Origin: Phycicoccus endophyticus
Lineage (GTDB): Bacteria; Actinomycetota; Actinomycetes; Actinomycetales; Dermatophilaceae
DNA length: 64,000 bases
Assembly: GCF_011326735.1 (NCBI RefSeq)
Contig: NZ_JAANCN010000003.1
Location: 1-64,000, forward strand
Direction: 5' to 3'
Both the position numbers and the translations under genes were made by a program. The notes below the pieces were generated by a model. The model did not search any database, was not told where the DNA came from, and saw nothing but the letters and a program-made list of their open reading frames with translations. This document shows positions 1 through 6,212 of the stretch, piece by piece (within the stretch, counting starts at the first letter, position 1; the number at the start of each line of letters is the position of its first letter).

Positions 1-2775
1 CTCGGGCGGCCCACCCCGGCGCCGGGGGCCCACGGCGCGCTCGCCGAGCTGCGCGCCGACACCGCCGCCGCCCGCCGGGACACCGCGACCGTCCTCGGGC
101 GCGCGCTGTCCGAGCTCGGCGAGCACGACGAGGCCCTCCCGCTGCTCGAGGCCTCCCCCGTGGACGAGCCGACCACGGTCGCCCTGCTGCGCTCGCTCGC
201 CGCGGTGCGCGGGGCCCCCGCCGCCCTGCAGCGCTACGACGAGGTGCGCCACGACCTCGCCGAGCGCCTCGGCGTCGACCCCGGGCCGGCCCTGCGCGCC
301 GTCCACGCCGAGCTGCTCGCCGCGGACACCCCGGTGCGCTCCGGGGTGCGCCACGACCCCACCTCCCTCGTCGGCCGGGAGGAGGACATCCGCGCCCTGC
401 GCGCCGCCGTGCGGGAGTCACGGGTGGTCTCCGTGCTCGGGCCGGGCGGCCTCGGCAAGACCCGGCTGGCCAACCTCCTGGCCCGCGAGGCCGAGCAGCC
501 GGTGGTCCACGTCGTCGAGCTCGTCGGGGTCACCTCACCCGAGGACGTCGTCGGCGAGGTCGGCTCGGCGCTCGGCGTCCGCGACTCGGTCACCGGCCGC
601 AGGGTGCTCACCCCGCAGCAGCGCGTCGACCTGCGGGCGCGGGCTGCCCAGGCCCTCGACACCGCCCCCACCCTGCTGGTCCTCGACAACTGCGAGCACG
701 TCGTGGCCGCCGTGGCCGACCTCGTGGCCTACCTCGTGGCGACCTGCCCCCGGCTGCGGGTGGTCACGACGACGCGCGCCCCGCTCGCCATCACCGCCGA
801 GCGGGTCTTCCCGCTCGCCCAGCTCGACGACGGCGCCGCCGCCGAGCTCTTCCGCCAACGGGCCCGGGCGGCCCGCCCGGGCCTCACCCTCGAGGACGAG
901 GCCGTGCTCGGCGTGGTCCGGCGCCTCGACGGGCTGCCCCTCGCCGTCGAGCTGGCCGCCGCCCGGGTCCGGGTGATGTCCGTCGAGGACGTCGCCCGCC
1001 GGCTCGACGACCGGTTCGCCCTGCTGCGGCGCGGGGACCGCAGCGCCCCCGACCGGCACGCGACCCTGCTGGCGGTCATCGACTGGTCGTGGAACCTGCT
1101 CGCCCCCGGCGAGCAGCGGGCCCTGCGCCGGCTGTCGGTGTTCCACGACGGGTTCTCGCTCGCGGCGGCGGACGCCGTCGTCGGGCACGACGCCCTCGAG
1201 GAGCTGCAGTCGCTCGTCGACCAGTCCCTGCTCACCGTCTCCGACGAGGGCAGCAGCGTGCGCTACCGGATGCTCGAGACGGTGCGTGAGTTCGGGCGGC
1301 TGCGGCTGCGCGACGCCGCCGAGGAGGCCGAGGCCGAGGAGGCCCGCCTGGCCTGGGCCGCCGACCTCACGGCCCGCCTCGGGGAGCGGCTGTGGACGCG
1401 CGAGCAGGTGGCGGCCGTGCGGGCGCTCACGGTCGAGGAGGTCAACCTGGCCGACTGCCTGCGTACGGCGCTCTCGGCGGGCGACCCCTGGGCCGTCGCC
1501 CGGCTGCTGTCGACCCTCGCCGCGTACTGGACCATCCGCGGCGAGAACGTCCGGCTCGTCGCCCTGGCGGGGGCCGTCGACGCCGCGCTCGCGGGGTGGC
1601 GGCCGCAGCCGGAGCAGGTGGACACCGCCCTGTGGGCGGCGGCGATGGTCGTCATGAACACCAACATCGGGGACGCCGCACCGGCGAACGCCTGCCTCGC
1701 CCTGCTCCAGGAGTGCGCCGAGCGGGTCACCGACCCCCGGCTGCGGGGCATCGTCGAGGTCCTGGCCTGCCACGACCCGACCGACGCCGACCGCTCCGTC
1801 GAGCGGCTCGACGAGGCCGCCGGCCGGGTGCACCACCTGGCGGCCGTCCTCGCGCGGATGTGGGCCGGCCACCACCGCGAGAACGTCGGCGACCCGCTGG
1901 GGGCGATCGCCGAGGCGGAGCACGGGCTCGCGCTGACCAGCGACGACGACGGGCCGTGGGTCGCCGCCCTGCTGCACTCCCTCCTCGGCACCCTGCACGC
2001 CCAGCTCGGCCACCACGAGGAGGCCGTGCAGCACGCCCTCGCCGCCCTTCCCGTGCTCGACGCGCTGGATGCGGTCGACGACGCCGTGCAGTCCCGGGCG
2101 ATGCTCGCGGTGCACGCCATGTCCCTGGGTCGCCTGGAGGAGGCCGAGGGCTGGCTCGCGCAGGTCGACCGGACGAGCACCGGCGCCCCCGGCTTCGGCG
2201 GCGCCTTCGTCGCCCTCTCGGCCCGGGCCGAGCTGGCCCTGGCCCGCGGGCAGGTGACGAGCGGTCTCGAGCGGTACCGGGAGGCGGTGGTCGCCCTGGC
2301 CACCCTCGCCGTCCCCGGGCTGGGTGGCCCGAACGGTCTCGAGCCCTGGTGCCTCTACGGCGAGAGCACGGCCACGACGGCGTACGCGGTCCACGGCGAC
2401 GGCGACGACGGGGCCGACCTCTACGCGGGCCTGCTCGCCAAGGCCCCCGCGGTCCTCGACGCCGGCCGCGCCCACCTGGACTACCCGGTCGCCGGCCTCG
2501 TCCTCCACGCCCTCGGGGCATGGGCGCTGCTGCGCTCCGCGGCCCCGGTCGAGGACGCCGTCCGGCTGCTCGTGCTCGCCGAACGCTTCGCCTACCCGCG
2601 GTTCGTCCCGACGATGAGCCCGGCGCACACCGACGGTGTCGCCGAGGAACGGGCGCCGGGGCTGGCCGACCGGGTCCGCGCCGAGTACGCCACCGCCACC
2701 GCCCCGGCCCTGCTGCCCGCGGCGCGGGCTGCGGTCGAGGCGGTGGCGGGACCCGCTCACATCTTGCGCGAGTAG
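1..2775 (+). CDS. SARP/AfsR-type transcriptional regulator with NB-ARC-like ATPase and TPR region, 5' partial
   Basis: The frame is open from the first base of the window and gives 924 visible codons to the TAG at 2773. The start and any N-terminal winged-helix DNA-binding domain lie upstream. The first ~105 residues carry the end of a bacterial transcriptional activator domain (RYDEVRHDLAERLGVDPGPAL). They are followed by an AAA/NB-ARC-like ATPase with Walker A GPGGLGKT (about bases 439-462), Walker B LLVLDNCEH and a GLPLAVELAA motif, then a long helical TPR-like region. Family knowledge: such proteins activate secondary-metabolite or export genes and bind short direct repeats. It converges on the exporter permease with a 19-bp overlap of coding ends. 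The exporter promoter carries SARP-like repeats (see 4607-4660), so it may control its neighbour; that is inference. Confidence 0.88.
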   Translation, partial: LGRPTPAPGAHGALAELRADTAAARRDTATVLGRALSELGEHDEALPLLEASPVDEPTTVALLRSLAAVRGAPAALQRYDEVRHDLAERLGVDPGPALRAVHAELLAADTPVRSGVRHDPTSLVGREEDIRALRAAVRESRVVSVLGPGGLGKTRLANLLAREAEQPVVHVVELVGVTSPEDVVGEVGSALGVRDSVTGRRVLTPQQRVDLRARAAQALDTAPTLLVLDNCEHVVAAVADLVAYLVATCPRLRVVTTTRAPLAITAERVFPLAQLDDGAAAELFRQRARAARPGLTLEDEAVLGVVRRLDGLPLAVELAAARVRVMSVEDVARRLDDRFALLRRGDRSAPDRHATLLAVIDWSWNLLAPGEQRALRRLSVFHDGFSLAAADAVVGHDALEELQSLVDQSLLTVSDEGSSVRYRMLETVREFGRLRLRDAAEEAEAEEARLAWAADLTARLGERLWTREQVAAVRALTVEEVNLADCLRTALSAGDPWAVARLLSTLAAYWTIRGENVRLVALAGAVDAALAGWRPQPEQVDTALWAAAMVVMNTNIGDAAPANACLALLQECAERVTDPRLRGIVEVLACHDPTDADRSVERLDEAAGRVHHLAAVLARMWAGHHRENVGDPLGAIAEAEHGLALTSDDDGPWVAALLHSLLGTLHAQLGHHEEAVQHALAALPVLDALDAVDDAVQSRAMLAVHAMSLGRLEEAEGWLAQVDRTSTGAPGFGGAFVALSARAELALARGQVTSGLERYREAVVALATLAVPGLGGPNGLEPWCLYGESTATTAYAVHGDGDDGADLYAGLLAKAPAVLDAGRAHLDYPVAGLVLHALGAWALLRSAAPVEDAVRLLVLAERFAYPRFVPTMSPAHTDGVAEERAPGLADRVRAEYATATAPALLPAARAAVEAVAGPAHILRE

Positions 2776-3605
2776 GTGCGCACGGAGAGGGTCCCGAAGA
2801 CCGCGACGACGAGCGCGCACCCGAGGAGGGCCCAGCCGACGTCACCGGTGACCGCCCCGCTGTTGAGCAGGTCGCGCACGGCGGTGACGACGTGGCTCAC
2901 CGGGTTGAACCGGACGAATGCCTGCAGCCACCCCGGCAGCGTGTCGGCCGGGACGAAGGCGTTGGAGAGGAAGGTCAGCGGGAACATGACCATCATCGAG
3001 ATGCCCTGCACGGCCTGGGCGCTGCGCGCGACGGTCCCGAGCCAGGTGAAGATCCACGCCAGTGACCAACCCGCGACGAGCGTGAGCAGCCAGCCGGCGA
3101 CCACCCCGAGGAGCCCGCCGGCGGGCCGGTAGCCCATGGCGAGGCCCGCGAGGATGGTCAGGGTCGCCGCGGTGCCGTAGCGCACCAGGTCGGCGACGGC
3201 GGGGCCGACGAGCGGCGCGATGCGTGCGATCGGCAGGGACTTGAAGCGGTCGAAGACGCCCTTGTCCATATCCTCGCGCAGCTGGATGCCGGTGGCCATG
3301 CAGGCCGTCAGCGCGGTCTGGGCGAGGATCCCGGGGATGAGCAGGGGGAGGTAGTCGGAGACGCTGCCGGAGATCGCGCCGCCGAAGATGTAGGCGAACA
3401 TCGCCGTGAACAGCAGCGGCTGGAACGTCACGTCGACGAGCTGCTCGGGGTTGCGGCGCATCTTCAGCAGGGCCCGCCAGGCCAGGGCGAGGCTCTGCGA
3501 GACGGTCTCTCGCACGGACGGGCGCGTCGGCAGGTCCCGCGCGCCGGCGAGCGTGCGCGCGGTGACGGTCGGCTCGCCGGGGGTCAGGGTGGTCGTCGTG
3601 GTCAT
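2757..3605 (-). CDS. DrrB-like ABC-2 type transporter permease
   Basis: A 282-residue integral membrane subunit of an export ABC transporter. After a hydrophilic N-terminus (MTTTTTLTPGEP) and an amphipathic stretch (RALLKMRRNPEQLVDV) come about six hydrophobic segments, for example FTAMFAYIFGGAI, LTILAGLAMGY and ALLGCALVVAVFGTLSV. The ABC-2 signature LTFLSNAFVPADTLPGWLQ lies in the C-terminal half. Length and layout fit the daunorubicin-resistance DrrB family. The ATG at 3605 overlaps the TGA of the ATPase gene by four bases (ATGA), so the two are translationally coupled. The substrate cannot be read from sequence; antibiotics or lipids are typical for the family. Confidence 0.9.
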   Translation of the reverse strand: MTTTTTLTPGEPTVTARTLAGARDLPTRPSVRETVSQSLALAWRALLKMRRNPEQLVDVTFQPLLFTAMFAYIFGGAISGSVSDYLPLLIPGILAQTALTACMATGIQLREDMDKGVFDRFKSLPIARIAPLVGPAVADLVRYGTAATLTILAGLAMGYRPAGGLLGVVAGWLLTLVAGWSLAWIFTWLGTVARSAQAVQGISMMVMFPLTFLSNAFVPADTLPGWLQAFVRFNPVSHVVTAVRDLLNSGAVTGDVGWALLGCALVVAVFGTLSVRTYSRKM

Positions 3606-4600
3606 CGGGTGGGCTCCATCTCGGGCTCGGGCCGGGTGTCCTCGGTGCCGTGACCGGTCAGGGCGAGGAAGACCTCGTCCAGGGTCGGCTTGTGCACGGC
3701 CGCCGAGCTGATCGGCAGGTCGCGCTGACGCAGCCCGATGAGGACGTCGGCAGCGCGGTTGGCGTCGGCGAGGGGGACGGTGATGCCGCCCGCCTCGGGG
3801 GTGAGGGTGGGCTGCTCGGCGACGAGGCCGCGCACGACCTCCACCGCGTCCGCGGTGTGCGCCGGGTCGACCAGCCGCAGCTGGAGCGAGGAGCTGCCCA
3901 CCTGGGACTTCAGCTCGTCCGGGGTCCCCTCGGCCACCTTGCGGCCCTGGTCGATGACGGCGACCCGGTCGGCGAGCTGGTCGGCCTCGTCGAGGTACTG
4001 GGTCGTCAGCAGGACCGTGCAGCCGTCGCGGACGAGCTCGCGGATCGTGTCCCACATCTGGCCGCGGGTGCGTGGGTCGAGGCCTGTCGTCGGTTCGTCG
4101 AGGAAGATCAGCGGGGGCCGGCTGATGAGACTCGCCGCGAGGTCGAGCCGGCGGCGCATGCCACCGGAGAACTTGGCGATCGCACGGTCGGCGGCGTCCT
4201 CGAGGCCGAACCGGCCGAGCAGGTCCTCGGCCGTGCTGCGGGCCTGGGTCGAGGACAGCCCGAGAAGGCGGCCGAAGAGGCGCAGGTTCTCCCGCGCGGT
4301 GAGGTTCTCGTCGACGGAGGCGTACTGCCCGGTGACCCCGAGCAGCTGCCGGACGACGTGGGGGTGCTCGCGCACGTCGACGCCGAGAACCTCGGCGTTC
4401 CCGCCGTCCATCGGCAGGAGGGTGGCGAGCATCTGCAGGGTCGTGGTCTTCCCGGCGCCGTTGGGACCGAGGACGCCGAAGACCTCGCCCCGATGGACGT
4501 CGAGGTCGATGCCGTCGACCGCGCGGACGCGCCCGAAGGTCTTCACGAGGCCGCGTGCATGGACGGCGGCCCCGCGCTGTGATGTCGTGTTCGTGGTCAT
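3602..4600 (-). CDS. DrrA-like ABC transporter ATP-binding protein
   Basis: A 332-residue cytoplasmic ATPase that powers the neighbouring ABC-2 permease. Walker A is GPNGAGKTTTLQ, the ABC signature is FSGGMRRRLDLAASL, Walker B is LIFLDEPTTGLD and the switch histidine region is LTTQYLDEADQLAD. A C-terminal ~100-residue extension with HKPTLDEVFLALTG is typical of the daunorubicin-resistance DrrA family. I chose the ATG at 4600 (MTTNTTSQRG) because upstream in-frame codons run into the regulatory intergenic region. It is divergent from glpK and forms an operon with drrB. Its promoter region has three 11-bp direct repeats placed like a SARP box. Confidence 0.92.
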   Translation of the reverse strand: MTTNTTSQRGAAVHARGLVKTFGRVRAVDGIDLDVHRGEVFGVLGPNGAGKTTTLQMLATLLPMDGGNAEVLGVDVREHPHVVRQLLGVTGQYASVDENLTARENLRLFGRLLGLSSTQARSTAEDLLGRFGLEDAADRAIAKFSGGMRRRLDLAASLISRPPLIFLDEPTTGLDPRTRGQMWDTIRELVRDGCTVLLTTQYLDEADQLADRVAVIDQGRKVAEGTPDELKSQVGSSSLQLRLVDPAHTADAVEVVRGLVAEQPTLTPEAGGITVPLADANRAADVLIGLRQRDLPISSAAVHKPTLDEVFLALTGHGTEDTRPEPEMEPTR

Positions 4601-4606
4601 GCCCCC

Positions 4607-4660
4607 AGGGTCGGCGAGCCCGGTTTCACGCCGGCTTCGCCGCGGTTTCACCGGTCCCAC
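4607..4660 (-). promoter_or_regulatory. Candidate SARP-type direct repeats and -10 box for the drrAB-like operon
   Basis: On the + strand, CGGTTTCAC occurs at 4621-4629 and again at 4643-4651, with the related CGGCTTCGC at 4632-4640. The units therefore recur every 11 bp. A further variant CGGTCCCAC lies at 4652-4660. For the leftward operon a -10-like GACCCT lies at 4612-4607, six bases before the ATG, and exactly 8 bp separates it from the nearest repeat. SARP activators are known to bind 11-bp-spaced heptamer repeats ending 8 bp from the -10 in place of a good -35. The -10 itself is weak. Confidence 0.5.
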
Positions 4661-4688: not shown

Positions 4689-4694
4689 TAGGGT
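4689..4694 (+). promoter_or_regulatory. -10 box (TAGGGT) of glpK, probably leaderless
   Basis: TAGGGT matches the actinobacterial TANNNT -10 consensus and ends six bases before the glpK ATG at 4701. There is no Shine-Dalgarno sequence, so transcription probably starts at or next to the A of the ATG. Confidence 0.55.
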
Positions 4695-4700
4695 GACGAC

Positions 4701-6212
4701 ATGGCTGACTTCATCGGCGCGGTCGACCAGGGCACGACGAGCACCCGCTTCATGGTCTTCGACCACGACGGGCGGGAGGTGGCCCGCCACCAGCTCGAGC
4801 ACGAGCAGCTCCTGCCCCGGGCCGGGTGGGTCGAGCACAACCCGCTGGAGATCTGGGACCGCACCCAGACGGTGGTCGCGTCGGCGCTGGCCGGGGCGGG
4901 CCTGTCCACCTCCGACCTGGCCGCCATCGGCGTGACCAACCAGCGCGAGACCGCCATGGTGTGGGACCGCCGCACCGGCCGCCCCTTCTACAACGCCATC
5001 GTCTGGCAGGACACCCGCACCGCGGCCATCGCCCGCGCGCTCGACGCGGACGGACGCGGCGACGTCGTGCGCGAGAAGGCCGGCCTGCCGCCCGCCACGT
5101 ACTTCTCGGGCGCCAAGGTGCAGTGGATGCTGGAGAACGTCGACGGGCTGCGGGCCGCCGCCGAGCGGGGCGACGCGATCTTCGGCACCCCGGACACGTG
5201 GGTGGTGTGGAACCTCACCGGAGGCACCGACGGGGGGCTGCACGTCACGGACGTGACGAACGCGAGCCGCACCATGCTCATGGACCTCACGACCCTCGAC
5301 TGGGACGAGGAGCTGCTCGGGTTCTTCGGCATCCCCCGGGCGATGCTCCCGCAGATCCGCCCGAGCAGCCACGCGCAGGCCTACGGCTCCACCGCCGGCC
5401 GGCGCGGCACGGCCCCGGTCCCGGTCACCGGCGTCCTCGGCGACCAGCAGGCGGCGACCGTCGGGCAGGTGTGCTTCGAGGTCGGTGAGGCCAAGAACAC
5501 CTACGGCACGGGCAACTTCCTCCTGCTCAACACCGGCGAGGAGCTCGTCCGCAGCGAGCACGGCCTCCTGACGACGGTCGCCTACCAGCTCGGCGACAGC
5601 GCGCCCGTCTACGCCCTCGAAGGCTCGATCGCGGTCACCGGAAGCGCGGTGCAGTGGCTGCGCGACCAGCTCGGCATCATCAGCGGGGCGAGCGAGGTCG
5701 AACGGCTCGCGGCCCAGGTGGAGGACACCGGCGGGGTGTACTTCGTGCCCGCCTTCAGCGGGCTGTTCGCCCCGTACTGGCGCAGCGACGCCCGCGGCGC
5801 GATCGTCGGGCTCTCCCGCTTCAACACCAACGCCCATCTGGCCCGGGCCACGCTCGAGGCGATCTGCTACCAGTCACGCGACGTCGCCGAGGCGATGGTC
5901 GCCGACTCGGGCGTGGAGCTGACGACGCTCAAGGTCGACGGCGGGGTCACCGCCAACCGGCTGTGCATGCAGCTGCAGGCCGACATCCTCGGCGTGCCGG
6001 TCTCCCGGCCGGTCGTCGCCGAGACGACCGCGCTCGGTGCTGCGTACGCCGCCGGGCTGGCCGTGGGGTTCTGGGAGAGCACCGAGCAGCTGCGGGCGAA
6101 CTGGGCCGAGGACGAGCGCTGGGAGCCGACGTGGAGCGAGGAGCAGCGTCGCGACGGGTACGCCGGCTGGCGCAAGGCGGTGCAGCGCACCCTCGACTGG
6201 GTCGAGGACTGA
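4701..6212 (+). CDS. glpK: Glycerol kinase
   Basis: A 503-residue FGGY-family kinase that phosphorylates glycerol to sn-glycerol 3-phosphate with ATP in the cytoplasm. The N-terminal phosphate-binding motif is [16 protein letters not shown]. The glycerol-contact region includes [15 protein letters not shown], the mid-protein motif [12 protein letters not shown] is present, and the C-terminal adenosine site is [16 protein letters not shown]. Length matches E. coli GlpK (about 502). The gene stands alone: no facilitator or glycerol-3-phosphate dehydrogenase is adjacent. It starts directly after a TAGGGT box and is probably leaderless. It converges on the DUF2332 gene with 13 bases between the stops. 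Confidence 0.97.

Follow-up and report, generated by a model that had tools for sequence, protein, structure and literature searches.

A candidate three-unit SARP operator at the promoter of a DrrAB-like exporter in Phycicoccus endophyticus

The regulator and exporter genes and the repeat box

The window is the 64,000-nucleotide stretch of Phycicoccus endophyticus DNA that was analyzed as a whole, and it starts at base 1 of its contig (C15). Positions 1-2775 of the plus strand encode the C-terminal 924 amino acids of a large SARP/AfsR-type regulator. The original prediction of a BTAD-ATPase-TPR part of such a regulator was borne out by domain matches to PF03704 (Bacterial transcriptional activator domain, E 1.3e-12) and to an NB-ARC/STAND NTPase (NB-ARC at 27.3 bits, cut-off 23.5 bits; AAA_16 and AAA_22 also above cut-off), with a TPR-like region whose matches were under cut-off. 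The N-terminal winged helix is missing because the window begins at the first base of the contig. Searching the organism's own genome with the N-terminus of a relative gave four weak matches, none of them fitting. The best (C1:103923-104198) lies inside another large open frame of 1265 aa, and a further one (L122), where the locus ends right after the match, shows a tRNA-like stretch with no SARP frame.

A gene for an ABC-2 permease (2757-3605, minus strand) converges on the regulator gene and slightly overlaps its 3' end. It failed the DrrB model TIGR01247 (70.1 bits, cut-off 223.05 bits) and is called DrrB-like only. The ATPase gene drrA (3602-4600, minus strand) passed the DrrA subfamily test of NCBIfam TIGR01188 with 343.3 bits against a cut-off of 312.45 bits. 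A 100-bp gap separates drrA from the divergent glpK (4701-6212, plus strand). The sequence TAGGGT stands six bases 5' of the glpK ATG (window 4689-4703), and glpK, back to back with drrA, may therefore also have a leaderless start. In the region from 4.7 to 35.5 kb, twelve genes, ten of them from 34 likely frames, were tested and were of ordinary metabolic types: glpK, DUF2332, aminopeptidase P, acyl-CoA dehydrogenase, a RIO domain protein, HpcH/HpaI aldolase, MgtE_N/CBS, an Mrp-type NTPase, a lysine-decarboxylase-like protein, an M20 peptidase, a DapD-like protein and citrate synthase. No biosynthetic cluster was found among these twelve genes, and the other side of the module lies off the contig.

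Upstream of drrA, and read on its strand, GTGAAACCGCG-GCGAAGCCGGC-GTGAAACCGGG (4651-4619) is followed by 6 nt, GACCCT, 6 nt and the ATG. From the repeats and from the relatives, three operator units are predicted on the minus strand: distal unit 1 (GTGAAACCGCG, 4641-4651), a weaker middle unit 2 (GCGAAGCCGGC, 4630-4640) and proximal unit 3 (GTGAAACCGGG, 4619-4629). Their 9-mer cores, CGGTTTCAC at 4621-4629 and 4643-4651 and CGGCTTCGC at 4632-4640, are spaced by exactly 11 bp, and both the coordinates and the spacings had been predicted exactly. The putative -10 element GACCCT (4612-4607, minus strand) was likewise found as predicted: 8 bp separate it from the closest 9-mer and 6 bp from the start codon (ATG, 4600-4598), an arrangement of the leaderless type.

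When three tandem 9-mers were compared at every period from 9 to 12 bp, their summed identity came to 23/27, a value reached by none of 2000 dinucleotide-preserving shuffles of the 100-bp drrA-glpK gap (maximum 21). In the whole 3.18-Mb genome, a search for the triple pattern with up to 3 mismatches returned the drrA box as the single site, and the reversed-pattern control returned 0. A promoter-trained PWM, with the box itself in its training set, scored 50.0 at the box and no higher than 0.0 in the rest of the 64-kb window. Loci L154 and L155 were omitted from a later version of the PWM; the L155 box is out of register in the scorer's placement. Among the random slices used as a null are some that overlap true boxes, and only the median of this null (-23) is usable. 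The repeats are real and conserved.

PhoP and RegX3 bind 11-bp direct repeats, and the PHO-box consensus is GTTCACC-N4-GTTCACC. The outer units of the drrA box, on the plus strand, contain TTCAC at a distance of 22 bp, close to this consensus, so that the repeats could be a PHO-type box for one of these global OmpR-family response regulators. Sites common to AfsR and PhoP are described in Streptomyces (PMC10972967). However, a PHO-box scan of the own genome with up to 2 mismatches did not include the drrA box among its 27 sites (reversed control 5), more than one such triple would be expected for a global regulator where this genome has one, and the type of box tracks the recognition helix of the SARP, as described below. 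Control by PhoP or RegX3 is thus considered very unlikely. The PHO-box-like sites include G000:C12:50309-50371, where a pair lies on opposite strands 27 bp apart, G000:C5:24234 and G000:C18:100521, and their number against that of the control suggests a phosphate regulon in this genome.

Association of regulator, box and exporter in related genomes

A scan of a genome collection with the window SARP was used to collect related loci, of which the best 80 were kept; more exist. The SARP is present in all of them by construction, having been the query. A drrB gene convergent on the SARP gene was found in 80/80 and drrA in 79, the remaining locus (L060) stopping at a contig edge. A pair of GTGAAACC units at 22-bp spacing, with at most 2 mismatches, was present upstream of drrA in 57 of the 79. 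The total on both strands of the 80 loci was also 57, so no such pair occurs away from the drrA upstream regions. At 3 mismatches the pair was found upstream of drrA in 68/79, with 3 sites elsewhere, and the remaining loci show a 21-bp variant or units that diverge further. Within 3-kb flanks of the trio, the largest protein cluster was common to 12 of 79 loci, which are named Nocardioides or Pimelobacter. Neither glpK nor DUF2332 was found in these 80 loci. The proposal of a self-contained, cluster-situated regulator and exporter stood as a regulator-exporter module, while "cluster-situated" is unsupported because the twelve tested genes are metabolic and neither glpK nor DUF2332 accompanies the module in the 80 loci. 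Serving the divergent glpK instead of drrA is an extremely improbable role for the repeats: both genes share the 100-bp gap and the box is about 50 bp from the glpK start, but no glpK-like gene was found in the best 80 loci and the fixed distance to the -10 element, described below, is on the drrA side.

The association was also approached from the box. With the triple-box pattern at up to 2 mismatches, matches were obtained in 3 of the 186 genomes of the family and in 15 of the 394 of the class, which amounts to 17 sites in 572 genomes since eight genomes belong to both sets. All 17 sites are directly upstream of a drrA relative, and the reversed-pattern control gave 0. Two of the 17 drrA genes are incomplete, one being broken in a collapsed module (L124) and one lying at a contig end (L158). 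The count of 17 is uninformative on the frequency of the module because the pattern is strict, as seen from the 70 class genomes with drrA against 15 with pattern matches.

Starting from drrA, an orthologue was found in 16/186 family genomes (E <=1e-110), and a convergent SARP was present in 15/15 of the other loci fetched. In the class, 70/394 genomes have an orthologue (E <=1e-105), and 64 of the other 69 loci fetched have a convergent SARP. Among the five without one, L216 and L217 are truncated by a contig end; L205 and L231 have kept the box, and no SARP was found in the remaining ~2 kb (L205 shows a 46-aa match and L231 no match). The fifth, L213 (G537:C4, from a 1.9-Mb genome), has a drrA 71% identical and a drrB, with no SARP in 8.5 kb and no box; it is perhaps an exporter freed from its regulator. 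As anticipated in the original prediction, the repeats occur upstream of orthologous exporter genes, at nearly all of those examined. In 11 genus mates the drrA matches did not exceed 56% identity. For drrA paralogues, taken from 36 loci among which at least one gene is represented twice, the PWM score was at most -10.6 compared to 50.0 at the window site.

Some loci appear incomplete. L124 (1500-2340) and L156 (G111:C85) have an intact box, drrA residues 11-74 and a reversed match to the SARP 5' end, with the rest missing; this collapsed module could be either natural decay or an assembly join. In L085 (Sphaerisporangium album) SARP and drrB are kept, the drrA match starts from residue 50 and there is no box in the 16.7-kb locus. 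Plasmid-borne spread was considered but not demonstrated: only 3 of 72,556 plasmid records have a close drrA (E <=1e-90), and two of these entries, labelled as plasmids, are 2.7 and 11.9 Mb long. Plasmid 4 of Tsukamurella tyrosinosolvens NCTC13231 (L251, 86.6 kb) carries a Thr-type module (see below) with an ACGACAG box. Its convergent trio is the same as in the window and is annotated at NCBI gene by gene ("BTAD domain-containing putative transcriptional regulator" by an ABC transporter), and the annotation table gives no operator or regulatory link.

For the promoter anatomy, 93 upstream regions were aligned on the 31-bp repeat block alone, without use of the -10 element; they derive from 95 by leaving out L061, where the stretch is cut at drrA, and the box-less L085. 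An A at +40 and a T at +44, corresponding to bases 2 and 6 of the -10 element, were found in 87 of these 93 promoters, at the same distance as in the window. Base 1 of the -10 element is a T in just 18 of 133 promoters, and the element was therefore classed as weak. The first in-frame start codon is exactly 6 nt past the -10 element in 38/86 promoters, the leaderless arrangement, and a second group of 30/86 has 39-52 nt in between. A simple scan of the drrA promoter for a sigma-70/-35-type promoter gave no match. The units consist of 8 or 9 conserved bases followed by loose ones. Only one or two units are clear in L188 and L227, and L234 is without a fitting -10 element at the place chosen by the scorer. 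In L041, L045, L063 and similar Streptosporangiaceae, a further GTGAAACC begins 20 bp upstream of the triple box, and this fourth unit may be used in these loci.

The classical SARP unit is TCGAG, as in the heptamer sites of the ActII-ORF4/DnrI type. The units of the drrA box had been predicted to be unlike this type, which holds for their letters and not for their placement. As a rule, the direct repeats of SARP sites are spaced by 11 or 22 bp, and 8 bp separate the 3' repeat from the -10 element (PMC10936776, available part). This rule applies to the ActII-ORF4/DnrI type and also fits the window box, with its 11-bp repeats and 8 bp to GACCCT. With the unit letters aligned, the GA core alone is common to both, and in several Streptosporangiaceae the middle unit reads TCGAGGG. 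Together with the -10 position fixed in 87/93 promoters, this agreement upholds the predicted SARP-activator arrangement. The SARP could instead bind the box and repress drrAB, with a ligand causing derepression; the box abuts the core promoter, and a negatively acting SARP, Atr32, is described in the available part of PMC10972967. The 8-bp distance to a weak -10 element is, however, the geometry of a SARP activator (PMC10936776, available part), no -35-type promoter was found here by the scan, and the 115 of 133 -10 elements without T at position 1 are as expected of promoters needing help. Repression is accordingly judged unlikely compared to activation by the SARP.

Recognition helix and box type

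The OmpR-type winged helix of the original prediction was confirmed in the relatives of the regulator only. A profile of 26 SARP N-termini from relatives matched AfsR at E 1.1e-22 and EmbR at E 6.4e-16, and Pfam Trans_reg_C was matched just below cut-off (E 1.1e-5 to 6.1e-5) in the three N-termini tested. In AfsR, T88 and R92 are the two residues described as touching bases, their numbers here being deduced from the T-to-R spacing, and T88 is termed highly conserved (PMC10936776, available part). The 26-row profile alignment places KALQVxVSRxR opposite AfsR AAVRTYASRLR, so that a Val falls on T88 and an Arg on R92. Both residues are invariant in all 26 aligned N-termini.

The comparison was extended to 149 loci, excluding L080, L226, L233, L240 and L248 for an ambiguous or unread helix, and these reduce to 138 distinct SARPs after removal of 11 duplicates, i.e. 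the same genes obtained via two collections. The residue aligned with T88 was Val in 119, Thr in 11, Ala in 7 and Ser in 1. T88 is a conserved contact and not a defining feature of SARPs. In the set of 138, the presence of Arg at R92 follows in part from the pattern used for finding the helix, which demands [SA]R, and the unbiased view of this residue is the 26-row alignment.

The letters of the box differ with the helix residue: GTGAAACC goes with Val, GTGCAAGC or GACAGC with Thr, and GTCAGC with Ala. With box classes drawn up post hoc on data already inspected, helix residue and box type were concordant in 134/138 distinct SARPs; the other 4 have neither type, and there is no mismatched pair. 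A GA(A/T)AC-type unit was found for 116 of the 119 Val SARPs, and the other type for none. Conversely, a G(CA/AC/TC/TA)AG unit accompanies 18 of the 19 SARPs whose residue is Thr, Ser or Ala, and the Val type accompanies none of them. Those without a score are L046 (with GTGAAGCC units), L061 (cut) and L085 (box lost) among the Val SARPs, and L154 has neither box type. Across the Val, Thr and Ala sets, 426 of 444 units have a G at position 3.

A tree of 71 SARPs, built with the winged helix left out, placed V in one clade, A in one clade and T and S in the rest; it has long branches and was made with a quick method. Independent origins of the helix change were considered and rejected, since a single change to V and a single change to A are required on the tree, with three changes altogether. 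The agreement between helix and box is clean, but with V and A as single clades it goes back to two or three changes and does not amount to many events.

AfsR-like control of the exporter

The closest known system is AfsR and the afs box of Streptomyces coelicolor (PDB 8hvr, 8jke and 8k60). The SARP-NTPase-TPR architecture is the same, in line with the profile match of the relatives. The afs box consists of two 11-bp direct repeats at -40 to -19, of which the first 8 bp are contacted and the last 3 are not, next to a suboptimal -10 element, CACTGT, with A2 and T6 (PMC10936776, available part); 11-bp repeats of similar make-up, with 8 or 9 conserved bases in the units of the module, and a suboptimal -10 element are features of both promoters. 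If the usual -10 position of -12 to -7 is assumed, the end of the afs box at -19 leaves a 6-nt gap, as in the window. The two systems differ in the repeat letters, CGTT(T/C)ATCGNN in the afs box (PMC10972967, available part) compared to GTGAAACCGNN in this module. They also differ in the number of units, two in AfsR and usually three here, in the T88 place, which is Val in most relatives, and in the linked target, which is here a convergent exporter.

DnrI, a small SARP, belongs to a biosynthetic cluster and has TCGAG-type heptamers as its sites. Prija et al. (2017) reportedly observed binding of DnrI to drrAB of Streptomyces peucetius. A SARP is linked to drrAB in both cases, but the SARP of the window is large and no cluster was found with it. 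Large SARPs, repeats of 11 bp and the control of drrAB by a SARP (DnrI) are already known in kind. No description of the repeat letters, of a SARP-drrBA module with its own operator or of the pairing of helix and box was found among the matches listed from titles and abstract openings of open-licence PMC articles, a set with the subscription literature mostly outside it.

The explanation we favor, with a probability of roughly 0.86, is that the SARP encoded at 1-2775 has the three 11-bp units as its operator, and that drrAB is probably its only or main target. Regulator, pump and box recur together in many actinobacteria, and they therefore probably form a self-contained unit of control that has a DNA target of its own. 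By analogy, the most likely mechanism would be an AfsR-like sigma adaptation at a promoter without a recognizable -35 element. Two or three SARP protomers would sit side by side on neighboring units, on one face of the helix, and cover the place of the missing -35. There they would hold sigma region 4 and the RNA polymerase, a protein thus replacing the DNA contact, and a leaderless drrAB transcript would then start from the weak -10 element GACCCT. AfsR is inhibited by its NOD and TPR parts, an inhibition that ATP relieves (PMC10936776, available part). Similarly, the NTPase and TPR parts of the present regulator may silence it until nucleotide binding frees it, a release presumably coupled to a signal, for which the exported compound is an obvious candidate. 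Binding, activation, sigma contact, autoinhibition and inducer are in this respect what we infer from the sequences and from AfsR.

A wider reading, which we put forward tentatively and regard as somewhat less likely true than false, is that of a widespread module of one regulator, one operator and one exporter, in which a STAND-type SARP senses the substrate of its own exporter. It would include the helix and box variants, one SARP clade having Val for the DNA-reading Thr of AfsR together with GTGAAACC, and another Ala together with GTCAGC. If this wider reading is true, the module preserves a natural recognition code for SARP proteins.

To our knowledge, the signals of large AfsR-type SARPs and the way in which SARPs read DNA are open questions. 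A compact module with one recognizable operator and more than 100 natural variants makes both of them testable: the substrates of the exporter are candidate inducers, and the helix-box pairs are a ready set for studying SARP specificity. The finding also suggests that some large SARPs are dedicated export switches outside antibiotic clusters.
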